Below are positions 15,643 through 59,200 of a stretch of 64,000 bases of DNA, piece after piece (the stretch's first letter is position 1; every line of letters begins with the position of its first letter). The stretch is from Archangium violaceum. GTDB taxonomy: Bacteria; Myxococcota; Myxococcia; Myxococcales; Myxococcaceae. The notes below the pieces were generated by a model. That model ran no database searches. It worked only from the letters and a program-made list of their open reading frames with translations, and was not told the DNA's origin. Made by a program: the position numbers and the translations under genes. The stretch spans positions 11,328,001 through 11,392,000 of the forward strand of contig NZ_CP069396.1 in NCBI RefSeq assembly GCF_016887565.1, read 5' to 3'.

Positions 15643-18027
15643 TCAGCGAACGGCCCAGGTGGCCGGAGGTACGTGGAACACGAGCTCCGGCCGGTTCACG
15701 GGCGAGAGACTCGACGCGCCCGCCTGCAACGAGCCCGCGAGCGTGGGAATCACCCGGAAGTGGGCGCTGAAGGGCTCGGCGGCGCCTCGCGGTGGCAGGG
15801 TGAGGCTCACCGCCCCATCCTCCACCTCGTAGGACGTCACCTTGCCCGCGCTCACCAGCGCATCGAGGCTCGCCCGGTCCACCTGCACGCCCGCGGGCAG
15901 CCCCTGGCGCAGCGTGAGCGCCATGCCCGAGGGCGACGCCGCCTGCACCGTCAGCTCCGCCGGCATGCCCACCTTCACCTCGGCCGGACCCTTCACGGCG
16001 AGCTCCAGGCCGCTGCTCTTCTCGCTCGCGCGCCACGGCACGTAGGCCCCCAGCGTGAGGGAGAAACCCAGCCCCGGCACCGCCGGCTCCGCGCGCACCG
16101 CCCAGGTGTGCGTCCCCGCCGAGCCGGGCACCTCGCCCTCCAGCGCGAGCACCTCGCGCAGCGCCTTCGCGTCGAGCGTCCCCTCCGTCACCACCTTGCC
16201 GTCCCGCTCCAACACCACGCGCACCTGGGCCGGCAGCGGCTCCTTGAAGAGCGCCAGCGCCGCCTGGAGGCCCACGAGGTTGGCTCGCCCGTCACCCCAG
16301 CCAGACTCGGGCCGGTAGTCCGCGAGCAGCGAGGTGCCCAGGTCCGCCAGCGGCGCCTCCTTGTCGTCCGCGAGCGCCAGCACCGCGAGCGCGGTGGCCT
16401 CGGCCACCGAGGGAACGAGCCCGTCCGCGCGCACCACGCCGGGGCCCACCGGCAGGAAGGCGGAGCCATCCGGACGCTTCTGGATGGACTCGCGGACCTG
16501 CTTGCGCAGCGCGTCCCGCACCGAACCGCTCACTCCGCCGCTGGCGAGGATCGCCGCCGCCGTGTAGCCGTCCTGCACCCGCGCCACGTAGCGCTCGAAG
16601 GCACCCGCGACGCGCGCACCGAAGGCCGAGGCCCGGCGGCGTCCCTCGTCCGAGCCCGCCCCGGCCCGCACCGTCCGGGCGCAGTCCGCGGTGGCCACCA
16701 GCAGCCGCTGCAACGTCCAGCCATCCGCGCCCTGGCACGTCCCATCGGGCCGCTGGGCCGAGGTCACCTGCGAGGACAGGCGCTCGCCCAGGCGGGCCAG
16801 CACGGGGTTGTCGGGGTGCGCCAGCGCCGCCTCGGCCAGCAGCGTCGCGGTGGCCACGTCCGGCGCGCGGCCCGCTCGCAGCACGCGCTGCCCGGCGAGG
16901 GCCGACATGCGCGCGAGCACCTCCGCGTCCGCCGTCTCGCCCAGTGACTTCAGCAGCTCCGGCGCACGGCCGGCGAGCAACAGCGCATAGGAGTCCTCGG
17001 CCACGCCTCCGCGCCCCAGGGCCGCGGACAGCTCCGAGCGCAGCACGCCCAGGGCGCCCGGGTAGACGAGCAGCCGCACCCGCTCGCTGCCCGCCACCGC
17101 GTCGGCGGGGCCCACCAGCTCCAGCGAGCGGGGAGCGGCCAGCGTACCTCCACGTGTCTCCATCACCGGCCGGCCCGTGGGCCACACGTCGAAGGTGCGC
17201 GTCACCGAGTCCGTTCCACCCAGCGAGGCCCGCACCGTCACCGGCCCCGGCTGCGCCGCGCGCATCGTCACGTACTCCACCACGCTGCCCGCCGCCGGGA
17301 CCGTCACCGTGCGCGAGCCGCCCTCCAAGGCCGCGCCCTGGGCCTCCACCTTCAGCGAGCGCGTCACCGGCGTCCCCGTGGTGTTCACCACCTGCACCGG
17401 CACGCGCACCACGTCCCCGGCGCGCAGGAAGGGCGGCAGCACCGGGTCCACGTAGGTGGGCAGCGTGCCCGCGAAGGTGCTCACCGCTCCGGCCTGCGCT
17501 CCCGAGCGCGAGTGCGCCAGCGCCAGCACCCGCCAGTTCGTCAGCCGGTCCGGCACCTTCACCGGCACCGAGGCCGAGCCCGACGCGTCCGTCACAACCA
17601 GCGGCTCGAAGAGGAACGTCTCGGGGAACCAGGCCCGCCCCGGTGTGGCCGGCGCTTCCTCGCCGGGAGGCGCGGGCGGCGGGGGCGGCGGAGGTGCCCC
17701 GGCCGCCATCACCGGCTTCGCCGCCCCTCCCCGTCCCGAGCCACCACCTTTGACGATCTGGATGATCTCCCGCCTCTTCTGCTCGAGGGGCCGCTCCTCG
17801 AGAGAATCCTCCATCGCTGGCGCCGCCATCGCCATCCCCTCCGCGTCCGCTTCCGCCGCGCCGAAGGTACTGAGGCTCTTCTGCTGCAAAACCATCTCCG
17901 GCGGCTCCGGGGAGGCCAGCGCTTCGGCGGAAGAGCCGAACATGCGGCGCACATTGCCCAGGCACGTGTTCAGCCCGAACCCCGCCATGAGGCACAGCCC
18001 ACCCACGATGATGTAGTAGCGCTTCAT
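15643..18027 (-). CDS. Alpha-2-macroglobulin family, C-terminal half (split A2M)
   Basis: A 794-residue protein with one N-terminal membrane anchor (MKRYYIIVGGLCLMAGFGL), a low-complexity linker with a poly-proline run, and a QKRREIIQIVKG motif at 83-94. From about residue 130 it matches the A2M domain (WFPETFLFEPLVV, then VPDRLTNWRVLALAHS), followed by the helical thioester-domain-type region (350-600) and receptor-binding-like beta domains. I find no C-x-E-Q thioester. In E. coli and Salmonella periplasmic A2Ms entrap proteases together with penicillin-binding protein 1C; here the C-terminal half is a separate polypeptide. ATG 18027 overlaps the stop of the upstream half by ATGA, so the halves are translationally coupled. 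Confidence 0.85.
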   Translation of the reverse strand: MKRYYIIVGGLCLMAGFGLNTCLGNVRRMFGSSAEALASPEPPEMVLQQKSLSTFGAAEADAEGMAMAAPAMEDSLEERPLEQKRREIIQIVKGGGSGRGGAAKPVMAAGAPPPPPPPAPPGEEAPATPGRAWFPETFLFEPLVVTDASGSASVPVKVPDRLTNWRVLALAHSRSGAQAGAVSTFAGTLPTYVDPVLPPFLRAGDVVRVPVQVVNTTGTPVTRSLKVEAQGAALEGGSRTVTVPAAGSVVEYVTMRAAQPGPVTVRASLGGTDSVTRTFDVWPTGRPVMETRGGTLAAPRSLELVGPADAVAGSERVRLLVYPGALGVLRSELSAALGRGGVAEDSYALLLAGRAPELLKSLGETADAEVLARMSALAGQRVLRAGRAPDVATATLLAEAALAHPDNPVLARLGERLSSQVTSAQRPDGTCQGADGWTLQRLLVATADCARTVRAGAGSDEGRRRASAFGARVAGAFERYVARVQDGYTAAAILASGGVSGSVRDALRKQVRESIQKRPDGSAFLPVGPGVVRADGLVPSVAEATALAVLALADDKEAPLADLGTSLLADYRPESGWGDGRANLVGLQAALALFKEPLPAQVRVVLERDGKVVTEGTLDAKALREVLALEGEVPGSAGTHTWAVRAEPAVPGLGFSLTLGAYVPWRASEKSSGLELAVKGPAEVKVGMPAELTVQAASPSGMALTLRQGLPAGVQVDRASLDALVSAGKVTSYEVEDGAVSLTLPPRGAAEPFSAHFRVIPTLAGSLQAGASSLSPVNRPELVFHVPPATWAVR

Positions 18028-21000
18028 GGCGACTCCCGGGCGACCCACGCGCCCCAGTTCTCGACGTCCTCGGGCAACCGCGTCCCACTCACCACCACCG
18101 CCCGCGGGTCGGTGAGGGCGAGCAGCTCCGGTGGCAGCCGCGACAGCTTCAACGTGCGGCCGTAGGCGTCCGTCACCGCCTCGCCGCGCTTCTCACAGGC
18201 CTCGAGCGCCCGGTCCCACAGCTTCGTCATCCCCGCGGCGGAGAGCGTCTCGCCCGGGGGGGCCGACTCCTCCCAGGCACGCACCTGCACCGTCAGCTCC
18301 GCGAGCACCCGGTAGAAGGGCTCGGTCAGCTCCACGTCCGGCATGAAGCTCCCCCGCGCCTCCACCGAGATGGGCTTCTCTCCACCGTTGCGCTGGGGCA
18401 CGCCCGACACGCGCAGCAGGGTGGCGGCGGCCGCGTTGGCACCACGGATGCGCCCCATGGCGAGCGCCGTCCCGTCGAGCACGTCGAAGGCCGGCGACGC
18501 CAGCGTGGGCGCCGGGCGCATCCCATCGAGCGCGCCCGTGCCCGGCAGGGACGCGAGCTGCGACAGGCTCTCGTCCACGCCGAAGAGGCCCACCGCCGCC
18601 GGACCCGCCTGTCCATCCACGCGCGTATTCACCTGGATGTGGGCCAGCTCGCCGGGCGCATAGGCCGCCTTGTCCGGCGCCACCTCCAGCGAGAGCTTCG
18701 CGCGCGGCGCCACGTACACCCGCGCCACCGCGCCCTCCCAGGAGGCCTCGGCCCAACCCTCGAAGCCACCGGGCAGACGGAAGCGCGCCACCGGGCCCGG
18801 CTTCTCCACCTCGGCCTCCAGCCGCTCCTCCCCCGCTTGCAGGTAGAGCTTCTTCGGCAGCTCGCCATTGAAGTCCGGGCCGCGCAGCAGCTCGATGCGC
18901 ACCTCCTCGCCCCCGCGCGCCAGCACCGGCGTGGCGCGCAGGCGCGTGGGAGGCAGCCGGGCCGGACGCAGCACCAGCTTCGTCGCGCCCAGGTCCTCCT
19001 TCCCCGCCGTCGCGCTCACCCGCAGCTCGTAACCGAGCAGCGTCGTCTCCTGGGACGCACCACCCGACTCGCCATGACCTCCGGGCTGGGCGGTGAGACG
19101 CACCACGCCCATGGCGTTCTCCGTCTCCACCTCTTCGCCCAACACCAGCCGCGAGAAGCGCGACTGGATGCAGGACAGATGCTCGGCGGACAGCATGCCC
19201 CGCGCCTGCGGCAGGGAGGCCCAGCCCACCTCCACCTCGCGCCGTCCCTTGTGCGTGCGCCAGGTGAGTGTGGCCGGCAACGAGGCGGACAGGGACAGCG
19301 TCTCGGGCAGGCACGCCCGCGCATCCAACAGGGTGGCGTGCAGCACCTGCTGCAACCACTCGGAGTACTCACCGGAGACGTAGTCCACCTCGATGGAGAG
19401 CTCGGGCAGGCCGGGGTCGCTCACATCCAGGGAGAGCGCCAGCATCCGCTCGCGGCCGGGCGGCAGCGTGCGCGTGCGCACCGCCAGGGCAAGGCAGGTG
19501 GCCAGCGGCGTATCCTCCGTCGCCACGTCCGTCACCGTCCCGCCCGAGCTCACGCGCACGCCCAACGTCACCGAGGCGGAGCCCTCCTCGGCCGACACGA
19601 AGCGCGCGCAGGGGCGCAGGGAGCCCAACCACCGCTCCAGGGCGAGCTGATCCTCGAGCCCGGCCTCACCGTCCTCCGAGAGGAGGTCCCTCACCGAGCT
19701 CAGCCCCACTGGGGGAGGCGGAGGCACGCGGCGCACCGGCATGGCGGGGATGACGACGTTGACGGGCGGACCCGGGTCGAGCTGGAAGGCGGCCACGCCA
19801 TCCTCGTCCGTCACCGCGCGCACGCCCTCGTCCCGCGGGTCCCATGCGCGCTTCACGGTGAGCTCCGCGCCGGGCAGCAGCCGGCCATCTGCGCTGGTGG
19901 CGCGCAGGTAGACGCGGTTGCTGTAGCCCTCCACCAGACCATCCTCCAGCTCCGTGACGGCCGACACGGAGAGCGAGTCCTCGGAGAGCAGCACCGAGGT
20001 CCCACTCTGCACCTGGTCTCCCGCGGGGTCCGTGGCGGACAGCCAGGCGGAGAGGGTGAACTGGCCGCGCAGGTCATAGGGCACGCGCGGCAGGGCGAGG
20101 CGGAAGTGACCCGAGGCGTCCGTGCGTGCCTTCCGGGGCAGCCCGTCCCTGGCCTTCTCGTCGAGCCACTCGGTGGGCGGGGGCCACCCGCCCGAGGCAT
20201 TCCACTTCACCTCCACGGCCGCGTCCGGCACCGGCGCGCCCGAGCTGTAGACGACCTGGCCCTCGACGATGGGCGACTCGCCCGCGCGCCAGAAGGGCCG
20301 GGTGCTGGTGGCCTCCACCCGGAAGCGAGGCAGGGTGAAGGGCTTCACCTGGAAGGAGGTCTCGGCGGAGGCATCACCGCTCGTCCAGCGCACCGTCCAC
20401 CTGCCCGTGGGCGCGCCGCTGTCGAGTGGGAAGTCCCCGGCCACCACGCCCCAGGGGCCCGCGGGTGCGCGCTGCTCCAGCACCACCTCGCCGGAGGGGT
20501 CGGTGACGAACCACGTGCCCGGGCGCCCGTCGATGGGCGCGAGGTCCTTCGCGCGCAGCACCACGGCGCGGAAGCGCACCTGGTGGCCGGGCTCGTAGAG
20601 GGGCCGATCGGAGAGGACGTGGACACGGGCGGGGGCGTAGAGGGCCAGCGGGGCCTCCACGGTGTCGGTGCCGAGTGGTGAGCTGACGCGAGCGCGCAGC
20701 CGGTAGTCCCCATCCGGCAGCGCGGGCAGCTTCACCTGGGCGCGCAGCGTGAAGCTGGAGCCCTGCTTCTTCCAGCCGTCCTCGGGCGGGAGTGGAGACT
20801 CCTTGCCCTGGGCATCCACGAGGAAGAGCGAGGCATCCAGGCGCCGCACCGGGGCCTCCAGCCGCTCCCAGTCACGCGTGGTGACACCATGCGCCTGGGC
20901 CGAGACATAGACGAAGCCCGTGCTCTCGCGGGCGAGCCCCTCGACGCGCAGGCTCGGCGTCTGCCGGAGGCGCCCGTCCGGGCAGTGAGGCACCTTCACA

Positions 21001-21113
21001 CCCTGGAACAACCAGGCGGAGACGCACACGTCCGAGGTGGCCCACCCCACGAGACCCACGAAGAGTCCCGCGGCGCAGCCGAGCACGACCCGGCGTTTCA
21101 AACGGATGTCCAT
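18024..21113 (-). CDS. Alpha-2-macroglobulin family, N-terminal half (split A2M)
   Basis: A 1029-residue envelope protein. Residues 8-25 form a signal/anchor helix (VVLGCAAGLFVGLVGW). Serial macroglobulin (MG) beta domains follow: ARVHVLSDRPLYEPGHQVRF at about 170 is the typical MG2 opening, and FQVKPFTLPRFRVEATSTRP the MG3/MG4 boundary. A region with ALTVKRAWDPRD-like turns, and near residue 800 YAPGELAHIQVNTRVDGQ with GLFGVDESLSQL, is the bait-region/MG6 signature. It ends where a normal A2M would continue into the MG7 domain, which is supplied by the next gene. A Cys-containing insertion (about 500-640) is not typical. First gene of a two-gene operon. Confidence 0.85.
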   Translation of the reverse strand: MDIRLKRRVVLGCAAGLFVGLVGWATSDVCVSAWLFQGVKVPHCPDGRLRQTPSLRVEGLARESTGFVYVSAQAHGVTTRDWERLEAPVRRLDASLFLVDAQGKESPLPPEDGWKKQGSSFTLRAQVKLPALPDGDYRLRARVSSPLGTDTVEAPLALYAPARVHVLSDRPLYEPGHQVRFRAVVLRAKDLAPIDGRPGTWFVTDPSGEVVLEQRAPAGPWGVVAGDFPLDSGAPTGRWTVRWTSGDASAETSFQVKPFTLPRFRVEATSTRPFWRAGESPIVEGQVVYSSGAPVPDAAVEVKWNASGGWPPPTEWLDEKARDGLPRKARTDASGHFRLALPRVPYDLRGQFTLSAWLSATDPAGDQVQSGTSVLLSEDSLSVSAVTELEDGLVEGYSNRVYLRATSADGRLLPGAELTVKRAWDPRDEGVRAVTDEDGVAAFQLDPGPPVNVVIPAMPVRRVPPPPPVGLSSVRDLLSEDGEAGLEDQLALERWLGSLRPCARFVSAEEGSASVTLGVRVSSGGTVTDVATEDTPLATCLALAVRTRTLPPGRERMLALSLDVSDPGLPELSIEVDYVSGEYSEWLQQVLHATLLDARACLPETLSLSASLPATLTWRTHKGRREVEVGWASLPQARGMLSAEHLSCIQSRFSRLVLGEEVETENAMGVVRLTAQPGGHGESGGASQETTLLGYELRVSATAGKEDLGATKLVLRPARLPPTRLRATPVLARGGEEVRIELLRGPDFNGELPKKLYLQAGEERLEAEVEKPGPVARFRLPGGFEGWAEASWEGAVARVYVAPRAKLSLEVAPDKAAYAPGELAHIQVNTRVDGQAGPAAVGLFGVDESLSQLASLPGTGALDGMRPAPTLASPAFDVLDGTALAMGRIRGANAAAATLLRVSGVPQRNGGEKPISVEARGSFMPDVELTEPFYRVLAELTVQVRAWEESAPPGETLSAAGMTKLWDRALEACEKRGEAVTDAYGRTLKLSRLPPELLALTDPRAVVVSGTRLPEDVENWGAWVARESP

Positions 21114-56204: not shown

Positions 56205-59200
56205 ATGTCCCTCCCGCGCGCCCTGCTCACCGGATTCCTCCTCGCGGCCATGGCCCTGTCGGGCTGCAAGCGCGACTCCCAGGTAGACGAGAAGAAGGCC
56301 GCGGAGCCCGAGCTGCCCCGGGCGGATCCAGCCCTCTTCGCCCGCGCCGGGCTCACCGCCCCCACCACCGCGCCGGGCATGCCGGACCCGGGCACGGTGG
56401 TGCTCTCGGAGCTGCGAGAGGCCATGGCCGACCCCCAGCCCGTCACCGAGCCCGAGCTCTGGAACCTCGTGCGGGAGGCGAACTGGCGCGAGGAGGGGCA
56501 ACCGCCCGGCGAGCGGCGCGGCAAGGCGGAGCGCTCCGATGAGGAGAGCTCCACGCTGGGCTCTTCCGGAGGACAGCCTCAGCTGAGGCGCAAGAACCTC
56601 AGGAACTTCGGACAGGCGGAGGACGGGGAGGCGTCCCCCAGAATCGACATTCGGTCTCCCTCCCGAGTGGAGGCCCTGGTCCAGGAGGAGCCGCCGCCCC
56701 CGCCGGCTTCCGCTCCCGCCGCGGAACCCGTCCCGGCCCCCTCCGCGGCGCCCAAGCCCACCATCCCCGCGGACTACGCCGAGCAGCGCAGGAGGCTGGC
56801 GCAGTACGAGCGCCCGCGCGTGCTCGATCAGAAGCGGCGGGAGGTCATCCAGATCATCAAGGGAAGCGGAGCGCCCGCGAAGGCGGACGCGAAGCCCCTC
56901 GCATCCAAGAAGCTGGCGCGGCCGGAGAAGCCAGCGCCCGAGCCTGCGGACGAGCCGGCGGACGAGGCACCGCGGCCGGTGCTGCCCAAGGTGGAGTCCG
57001 CGCCGCGCATGGCCAAGGTGTTGGTGCGGGACGAGTCGGGCCGCTACCAGCCGCTGAAGGCCCGCGCGGTGCGCGTGGTGACGTACATCCAGGGCGCCCG
57101 CGCGCGCACGGTGGTGGACTACCTCTTCGAGAACGACACCCCGCGCACGCTGGAGGGCACCTTCTATTACCCGCTGCCGGGCGGGGCGACGGTGGCGGGA
57201 CTGGCGCTGTACTCGGGCGCGGTGGCGGTGGACTCGCCCTCGCTCTTCCAGTCCGCGGAGCTGCTGCCGCCGCTGGGGGACGACTCGGGGAAGCCGGAGT
57301 CGCTGGCGGCGGCGGCCCCGCCGAGCCCTCCGGGAGCGAAGCGCTCGTGGGGCGTGGCGCAGGAGGCCCGCGTCGTCGAGCAGAAGCGCGCCCGCGAGGT
57401 CTACGAGGACGTGGTGCGCCAGGGCGTGGACCCGGCGCTGCTGGAGTGGGCGGGAGCCTCGACCTTCAGCGCGCGCGTCTTCCCGCTGCCGCCAAAGTCC
57501 CTCAAGCGCGTGGTCGTCGCCTACGAGCAGACGCTCCTCTTCGATGGCCAGCACCTGCGCTACACGTGGCCGCTGCCGCCGGGAGCGGGCCAGGCGCTGA
57601 AGGTGTCGGCGCGCGTGCACGTGGACCCGAGGCACGCCGGTGAGGTGACGGTGGGCCCGGACGCGGGACAGCCGCGCACGCTCGGAGCCTGGCGGGCATG
57701 GGACCTGCCGCGGCTGAAGGGGGACGGCGCGCTGGACGTGGCGCTCACCCCGAGGAGCGCGGAGGCGGACGTGCTGGTGGGCGGGGACCCGGCGGGACTG
57801 CCCGGGCACGCCTTCTACACGCGGGTGCGGCTGCCGGAGCGGCTCACCGCGGGCAACGAGGGAGCACCCACCGGGCGCGCGGTGCTGGTGGTGGACACCT
57901 CTCTGTCCTCGGAGGAGGGCAATGCGTGGGCCCTGCAGGCGGCGCTGCTGCGCGCGCTGCTGGAGAAGGATGAGAGCCTCGGCGAGTACGCGGTGCTCCT
58001 CTTCGACGTCCGCCCGCGCTGGTTGCATGGCCCGGGCTTCCGGCGCAACACGCCCGAGGCGCGCCAGGAGACGTTCGCGGAGTTGGAGCGTGTCTATCTC
58101 GAGGGTGCCTCGCATGTGGATGGAATGCTGGCCGAGCTGGACCGGGCCAGCCGGGACTGGCTGAAGCCGGCGGCGAGCGGCGGGCGGGTGACGGCCTTCC
58201 TGCTCTCGGACGGCAACGTCACCTGGGGGCAGAGCCACGTGGACGCCCTCATCTCGAGCCACTCCGCCACGGAGACGCTGCGCTGGGTGGGCTACCGCTT
58301 CGGCGAGGCGGCGGTGAACCAGGAGCTCTTCGACGCGCTGGCCCGGGCAAGTGGAGGCCGGGTGGTGAACGTGCTGTCCGGCGCCGAGGTGGAGGCGGCG
58401 GCACGCGCGCACCGGGCGGCCTCGGTGGTGCTGGCCCGGGTGGAGGTGAAGGGCGCGCAGGTGAAGGACCTGGTGGTGGCGGGCCGGCCGCACCTCGTCT
58501 TCCCCGGGCAGGAGCTGCAGGTGGCCGGGCGGCTGGTGGGTGACGGCGAGGCACGGCTGGAGGTGGTGACGCAGGCCGCGGGAGAGGAGCGCTCGCTGGC
58601 GGTGCCGCTGCCTCGCGAGGAGGACAGCACCTTCGCCCCACGCGCCTGGGCGGAGCTGTTCGTGTCGCGGCTGGTGGCGCTGGACGACGTGAAGCTGGAC
58701 CGGATGGTGCTGGCGCTCAGCCAGCACTACCGGCTGACCAACGCGCGGGCCTCGATGCTGGTGCTGGAGTCGGAGGGGGACTACGTGCGCTACGCGGTGC
58801 GCGACGAGCAGATGGACCTCTCCGACCTGGACACGCTGAGGAAGCAGCAGGAGGACCAGCGGCGGGACGAGCTGCTGGGGCTCTCGCTGAATGGCGTGCC
58901 GGAGACGGGCCGCGAGGTGCTGCGGGTGCTGAAGGCGAAGCAGGAGGTACTGGGCTCGAAGCTGAAGGCCCAGGCCCTGCGGGACGCGCCCTACACGGGC
59001 GGCGAGGAGCGGCTCCAGGCGGAGCTGGAGTACCGGAAGGCACGGCGGGCCAACAAGGACGACGTGATGGTGTACGAGGCGGTGGCACGCAAGCGGGCCT
59101 TCGCGGGGGACACCTGGGGCGCGGTGCGGGCCCTCTCGTCACCGGTGGAGCTGCGCCCGAAGGACGCCGAGGCGCTCCGGCTGGTGGGCTACGGACTGCT

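Follow-up and report, generated by a model that had tools for sequence, protein, structure and literature searches.

Why should two otherwise unrelated envelope proteins carry the same short peptide? The question is raised by a 64,000-nucleotide stretch of the Archangium violaceum genome (contig NZ_CP069396.1, positions 11,328,001 to 11,392,000 of the forward strand), called here the window. Archangium is a predatory soil bacterium. The window encodes a protein of the alpha-2-macroglobulin (A2M) type, a type that resembles the protease traps of blood, as two separate chains, and the C-terminal chain shares a 12-residue motif with a 1237-residue lipoprotein that has a VIT domain. On sequence grounds, we identify the segment containing the motif, tag 2, as the C-terminal tail of the pilus protein CpaB/RcpC (KilB in Myxococcus), and a second segment, tag 1, as the stretch that follows the membrane helix of the Flp major pilin (KilP), together with its tail. 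On balance, we lean towards the proposal that both are docking tags for the Tad/Kil pilus machine, copied from, or kept similar to, the pilus parts of the same cell. What is observed is that the tags resemble these pilus parts in sequence, that they occur in such parts and in a handful of envelope families, and that tag 1 tracks, lineage by lineage, the pilin of its own genome.

The positions and residue numbers of the motif are as given in the sequence-only reading that first pointed it out. On translation, the minus strand at 17746–17781 gives QKRREIIQIVKG (residues 83–94 of the A2M C-terminal half, counted from the ATG at 18027), and the plus strand at 56829–56864 gives a peptide identical to it at 10 of 12 positions (residues 209–220 of the lipoprotein). 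Both linkers are Pro/Ala-rich, so low complexity might be invoked; yet none of 2000 shuffles of both linkers gave a 12-residue window with 10 identities (the maximum was nine, found once), and the best ungapped segment between the linkers scores 98, whereas 200 shuffles gave at most 57. The linkers have a second segment in common that the sequence-only reading did not mention, LQQKSLSTFGAAE in the A2M half with a 13-residue counterpart in the lipoprotein. The 12-residue likeness is real and beyond chance. Chance similarity of low-complexity linkers is ruled out by the shuffles and contradicted by the genome-wide specificity and the tracking described below, and we give it practically no credence.

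A search of the 13.2-Mb single-contig genome with the motif peptide bears out the expectation that its bearers are envelope proteins, since the three matches at E < 0.01 are the A2M half, the lipoprotein, and a CpaB/RcpC protein, the last through its C-terminal tail, GERTRVLEQKRREIIQIIKG.... With this tail as the query, the same three proteins and nothing else are found in the genome at E ≤ 10. Three weaker matches to the motif (E 0.9–6) were rejected as noise; two of them were reread and are Arg/Gly-rich frames without the motif. The CpaB has an RcpC domain (PF16976, 84.9 bits) and a SAF domain (36.1 bits), and its gene adjoins two genes each for T2SSF platform and FHA proteins (locus L037). 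This grouping is like kil cluster II of Myxococcus, for which CpaB and both platform proteins are reported, as FHA proteins are for Kil systems generally (PMC8460266). Each window protein is identical to CpaB at 11 of the 12 motif residues. Unlike CpaB, the A2M half and the lipoprotein have the tail alone, with no SAF or RcpC match in the Pfam scan of the window proteins.

The second segment leads to the pilin. Over its first 58 residues, the A2M half matches the own Flp pilin of this genome (E 4.3e-6) through a membrane helix, an FGxSAEALA segment, and a KSLxxFG tail. The same pilin matches the N-terminus of a YfbK-type vWA protein (E 7.8e-19) and a small pilin-like protein in a 104-residue frame (E 3.4e-5). 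A weak match (E 0.058) is to a second vWA protein, whose C-terminus is pilin-like, ...RRLFGSSAEALAG...LQLHRKSLKTFGQNNAY; a sixth match (E 2.4) was dropped as noise. The two tagged vWA proteins are located at G000:C1:1852546 and 12666841. The pilin has a processing site, RGQGMTEY, scores 24 bits with the Flp_Fap model, below the cut-off of 32.2, and matches Caulobacter PilA (8u1k) at E 0.0067. KilP is described as a protein of 97 residues with a GTG start, of which the A96C variant alone is unable to support predation (PMC12075869). At two of ten myxobacterial loci examined (Myxococcus sp. CA023 and M. vastator), a GTG start gives a pilin of 97 residues with Ala96 in the tail, and the pilin family considered here is therefore probably KilP; we assign the names KilP and KilB provisionally, judging by length, tail, and gene content.

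The features in common with the major pilin (PMC12075869) are the post-helix FGxSAxALAG, the C-terminal KxLxxFG, and, in the A2M half and the YfbK-type vWA protein, the helix. This retention of the membrane helix and post-helix segment raises the alternative that these two kinds of protein become part of the Tad filament as atypical pilins. This has been proposed for CpaL of Caulobacter, a Tad-linked minor pilin modelled as a vWA domain joined to a pilin module, so that vWA–pilin fusions as such are already known (PMC12607857). The model of CpaL, however, has a pilin fold as well as a processing site (PMC12607857), whereas the tags described here are short copies of the major pilin and CpaB on vWA, VIT, and A2M proteins. 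Reading by eye, there is no G/xxxxE prepilin-peptidase site in the ATG-started A2M half, whose N-terminus is MKRYYIIV, or in the YfbK-type vWA protein of the same genome, and unlike in the pilin the tag is joined to large folded domains. In addition, the A2M half of a distant genome, G023, has a lipobox-like LISC ahead of the tag (by eye), and the C-terminally tagged vWA proteins and the VIT lipoprotein have the tail without an adjoining pilin helix. We thus regard incorporation into the filament as distinctly unlikely.

The distribution of the tags was followed in 39 genomes, those of the window's strain and 38 relatives, with profiles of the two tags (A1 and A2; E ≤ 1e-3). The best candidates, up to 150 per genome, were scored, a number reached in six genomes for tag 1 and three for tag 2; the profiles include sequences from the own genome and its relatives, and those matches come by construction. 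Among the candidates scored, and by our own tally of classes (a few assigned by eye: L044, L149, and L278, to the vwaN, membrane-family, and A2M classes), tag 2 has 41 matches, comprising 28 CpaB, nine VIT, three A2M, one CpaB–vWA fusion, and no others. Tag 1 has 77, namely 38 Flp pilins, 15 vWA proteins with a C-terminal tag (vwaC), 13 YfbK-type vWA proteins with an N-terminal tag (vwaN), six A2M, three small pilin-like proteins, and two members of an uncharacterised membrane protein family. All 118 matches thus fall in pilins or pilin-like proteins, CpaB, vWA, VIT, or A2M proteins, or this one membrane family. In the latter (L131, a 769-residue frame of G010 without a Pfam match, and L149 of G013), the pilin copy lies between hydrophobic segments. 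Two CpaB-like proteins (L172 of G022 and L174 of G010) are in frames of more than 700 codons with long N-terminal extensions, and several genera have more than one CpaB each.

These bearers also bear on which machinery is concerned. The sequence-only reading had taken the motif for a signal used by a single machinery, that of A2M and DUF2135 proteins (YfaS/YfaP-like), and had considered a wide spread in unrelated cytoplasmic proteins, of which the 41 tag-2 matches give no sign. An A2M protein and a DUF2135-like protein do both carry the motif, and the notion of a shared signal is in keeping with these results. The commonest bearers, however, are CpaB and the pilin, and domain scans find neither an A2M nor a DUF2135 domain in the own CpaB, the own pilin, or the tagged vWA proteins scanned; moreover, VIT paralogues of the same family lack the tag. 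The domain labels themselves hold in part: A2M (PF00207) and VIT (PF08487) score above their Pfam cut-offs, while DUF2135 (PF09906) reaches 17.4 bits in the lipoprotein against a cut-off of 22, and no vWA model is listed for that protein at E ≤ 0.01. The bearers point to the Tad pilus, and a signal proper to an A2M/DUF2135 machinery is very improbable.

Since the vwaN and vwaC sets were first collected with the tag profile and are biased in that respect, searches with the protein bodies only were added for VIT, vwaC, and vwaN. The best candidates, up to 41 (VIT), 51 (vwaC), and 45 (vwaN), were scored, as were up to 26 in the A2M search, and absences hold among these. Tag 2 is present in 9 of 12 full-length VIT proteins, the three without it being second copies; it was not seen in paralogues L260–L262, and a G003 fragment, L263, yielded no linker. 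The ten closest vwaC proteins, the own one included, all have tag 1; the next group, at 43–46% identity, has no match in the tag-1 profile search among the candidates scored, and the tail of the own pilin finds no match in an untagged paralogue, L268 (p = 0.24). Likewise, tag 1 is found in all seven of the closest YfbK-type vWA proteins, again including the own one, and paralogues at about 70% identity have no tag-1 profile match among those scored; three were read and none is tagged. The vwaN of G008 is a contig-end fragment. Tag-free paralogues coexist with tagged proteins in the same genomes. In four untagged VIT/vWA paralogues (L260, L261, L262, and L271), the linker holds instead Gly-Val repeats (GGVVGGVVGGVLGG-like), which may resemble TonB linkers.

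When the linkers are compared with the CpaB tail of the own genome, all eight VIT linkers and one further paralogue pass at p ≤ 0.01 (500 shuffles). In the alignment of the VIT linkers, tag 2 is a conserved block in a linker that has otherwise diverged. The pilin tail passes in two of these eight linkers. Among the A2M halves, 9 of 16 reach p ≤ 0.01 for tag 1.

The relation between the tags and the pilus parts across lineages was examined by permutation with one genome per genus. This left out five of the six Archangium genomes, and genomes for which no pilin or CpaB sequence had been obtained were not included either; also excluded were L177/L108, L173, and four full-length A2Ms (L143, L159, L175, and L176). 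A genome's pilin matches the tag of its own genome better than those of others in vwaC (own 101.5, other 79.0; n = 11, p = 2e-5), in vwaN (141.4 and 92.2; n = 8, p = 4e-5), and in A2M (55.2 and 43.4; n = 13, p = 2e-5; n = 12 in the first run), that is, at p ≤ 1e-4 in each. The own tag is the best match for 7 of 11 pilins in vwaC, 6 of 8 in vwaN, and 5 of 13 in A2M. Three control pairings are not significant (CpaB body with A2M linker, p = 0.95; CpaB body with vwaC tail, 0.23; pilin with vwaC body, 0.085), and the tracking holds when G006, G009, G010, and G020 are removed (p 0.0007, 0.008, and 0.0002). In G010, for example, the pilin ends ...LTNKTMQNFGQNNTY and vwaC ends ...GLTQKTMQNFGQNNAY; in G007, FAMSADSLAG is found in both pilin and A2M; and the CpaB tail of G023, RQRRQQTIQVIKG, recurs identically in two A2M proteins of that genome. 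If old copies had drifted alone, the own tag would not be expected to outdo the tags of other genomes, which it does. Lineage-specific changes in the pilin recur in the vWA and A2M tags of the same genome.

Several results weigh against docking tags that follow the machine. Of the 15 A2M halves that can be tested for tag 2, four pass (p ≤ 0.01), two of these weakly; the half of the nearest relative, G005, is 92% identical and does not pass. With 8 of 8 VIT linkers against 4 of 15 A2M halves, the CpaB tag is therefore typical of the lipoprotein and sporadic in A2M. The concern that the motif might be lost in orthologues is thus justified for A2M, where 11 of the 15 halves fail (p > 0.01); in tagged VIT orthologues the motif is an island of conservation, and in G023 CpaB and A2M have exactly the same version of it. 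The permutation test was run without a species tree. Tracking was not found among the six Archangium genomes (p = 0.13 and 0.98) or between CpaB and VIT (n = 4, p = 0.58), and that between CpaB and A2M depends largely on G023 (p = 0.0012 if it is included, 0.013 if not). A paper on the Kil tip places the full set of minor pilins in four tip clusters, and therefore the tagged proteins would not be tip minor pilins. Finally, the agreement of codons at identical residues is overall somewhat above that expected from codon usage: 270 of 399 identical codons in vwaC (expected 242 ± 9), 239 of 357 in vwaN (219 ± 8), and 104 of 170 in A2M (95 ± 6).

Codon agreement above expectation means that some of the copies may be recent duplications. 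High values are seen in G010 vwaC (23/25, expected 16.1 ± 2.1), G020 A2M (18/19, expected 11.4 ± 2.0), and vwaN of the sister genome G005 (27/33, expected 20.4 ± 2.4), and recent copying may have occurred in G009, G010, and G020 and in the vwaN of G005. One could then regard the tags as remnants left when the 3′ ends of pilin and cpaB genes were copied time and again, by duplication or gene conversion, into linkers that evolve fast; docking would play no part. The quick gain and loss of tags in A2M linkers would agree with this. Set against it are the conserved island formed by tag 2 in the VIT linkers, the tracking that survives removal of the four genomes named above, and the codons of the window's own genome, which lie within 1.5 standard deviations of expectation both for the pilin tags (vwaC 19/27, expected 16.5 ± 2.2; vwaN 25/34, 21.4 ± 2.4; A2M 13/21, 12.3 ± 1.9) and for the CpaB tags (CpaB–A2M 9/15, 10.5 ± 1.4; CpaB–VIT 12/16, 11.3 ± 1.5). 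They give no support to recent gene conversion as the sole cause there, and for the tags of the window itself it is simpler to suppose that selection has maintained the likeness. Copying debris without function is, in our estimation, an unlikely account of the whole, though the least unlikely of the alternatives.

The pilus-derived segments are not confined to short tags. A vWA protein of G007 (L177) has an RcpC domain (35.8 bits, cut-off 28.8) as well as the CpaB tail and is a CpaB–vWA fusion; its match to TIGR03177 extends to model position 257 of 262, with a score of 69.2 against a cut-off of 71. The A2M of the window has its alpha-2-macroglobulin domains spread over two chains, with MG2 in the N-terminal half (72 bits), A2M in the C-terminal half (56.4 bits), and a bait-region domain, A2M_BRD, just below its cut-off in the N-terminal half (21.9 bits against 22.7). 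The ATGA at the start of the C-terminal half overlaps the stop codon of the N-terminal half, and the split falls in the interval between the bait-region and A2M domains. In full-length A2Ms of G023, G007, and G024, the same interval holds a pilin-like stretch and hydrophobic segments (by eye), the tag of the G024 protein being weak (E 0.0055 in the tag-1 profile search). Three tagged full-length A2Ms (L143, L176, and L159) have several hydrophobic segments between the two domains; given this mid-protein position, both parts of these proteins may be membrane-tethered.

The same three proteins keep CFEQ, and the tags lie in a long linker of an A2M, which could suggest that the A2M linker mimics pilus peptides as bait for proteases that attack the pilus. 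But in all three the tags sit between A2M_BRD and the A2M domain, outside the bait domain, no CxEQ thioester motif is seen in the A2M of the window, and the tags of the vWA and VIT proteins would be left unexplained. We see little prospect for such a decoy.

We return to docking on the Tad/Kil machine. YfaS is an A2M protein held at the inner membrane with partners. MagD of Pseudomonas is likewise an A2M at the inner membrane with partners (PMC5764988); unlike both, the A2M of the window is made as two chains, split after the bait-region domain, and has pilus-derived tags. The C-terminus of Caulobacter CpaB is modelled as a β-hairpin on CpaI, which is packed on the secretin (PMC13170226), and the ..EIIQIIKG strand of tag 2 would suit strand pairing of this type. 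The C-terminal helix of KilP is modelled unfolded on the pilus surface (PMC12075869). From these modelled tails, the A96C effect, and the probable identity of the pilin with KilP, we propose that the tagged proteins bind at the tail sites. The tags would occupy the sites normally bound by the CpaB tail and the pilin tail, so that anchored A2M, VIT, and vWA proteins would be kept where the Tad/Kil machine assembles. For tag 2, its ..EIIQIIKG strand would most likely pair, as a β-strand, with the secretin on its periplasmic side or with a bridging protein, much as models suggest for the CpaB C-terminal hairpin of Caulobacter; tag 1 would probably contact the assembly platform or adjacent pilin subunits. 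The recruited vWA and VIT proteins could serve as accessory adhesins or sensors, and A2M as a protease guard where prey is contacted.

The sequences thus suggest that A2M, VIT, and vWA proteins, large envelope proteins that resemble the protease traps of blood and adhesion proteins, plug into the pilus machine. If so, the contact-killing pilus of predatory bacteria gains these proteins as new candidate components, bacterial A2M, VIT, and YfbK-type vWA proteins acquire a role, and the tags are addresses that track a machine across lineages; they also mark the tails of CpaB and the pilin as candidate binding sites. Among open-licence papers, we found no report of CpaB-tail or major-pilin copies in A2M, VIT, or YfbK-type vWA proteins, or of their tracking.

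A YfbK-type vWA paralogue of the own genome (L269:953-3010 in G000:C1, at about 8.407 Mb) has an N-terminal CarboxypepD_reg module, behind which lies a stretch that by eye resembles a TonB box. The module shares 42–45% identity with the N-terminal parts of four outer-membrane barrel proteins encoded in this genome. Since the module resembles the N-termini of barrel proteins, the borrowing may extend beyond Tad. It is tempting to generalise, although we hold this more tentatively than the docking proposal and at somewhat less than even chances: borrowed peptide addresses, co-evolving with the machine, would plug myxobacterial vWA, VIT, and A2M proteins into specific envelope machines. Pilin and CpaB tails would direct them to Tad/Kil, the N-terminal module of barrel receptors (for which the evidence is weaker) would direct another vWA paralogue, and paralogues with different addresses would go to different machines; Kil would then have vWA, VIT, and A2M accessories that have so far gone unrecognised.

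The features of the window are collected in Table 1.

Table 1. Tagged proteins of the window and their tags (positions in the 64,000-nucleotide stretch).
Feature	Position	Strand	Remarks
A2M C-terminal half, 794 residues from ATG	15643..18027	minus	PF00207 A2M domain; without CxEQ thioester motif
A2M N-terminal half, 1029 residues	18024..21113	minus	MG2, 72 bits; ATGA overlap couples it to the C-terminal half
Flp-pilin-like membrane helix and post-helix segment	17911..18027	minus	MKRYYIIV...GNVRRMFGSSAEALAS
Pilin-tail tag (tag 1) in A2M half	17845..17889	minus	LQQKSLSTFGAAEAD
CpaB-tail tag (tag 2) in A2M half	17746..17799	minus	EERPLEQKRREIIQIVKG; original motif at 17746-17781
VIT lipoprotein, 1237 residues	56205..59918	plus	Lipobox ALSGC by eye; weak TPR and DUF2135 matches
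Pilin-tail tag (tag 1) in lipoprotein	56583..56624	plus	Per-genome E just 0.097 in tag-1 profile search
CpaB-tail tag (tag 2) in lipoprotein	56805..56864	plus	Second motif copy at 56829-56864

In the A2M N-terminal half (18024-21113, minus strand), residues ~480–680 contain two inserted Cys-bearing repeats; this region has no Pfam or NCBIfam match, and the repeats may resemble the C-terminal domains of AgmX/PglI.

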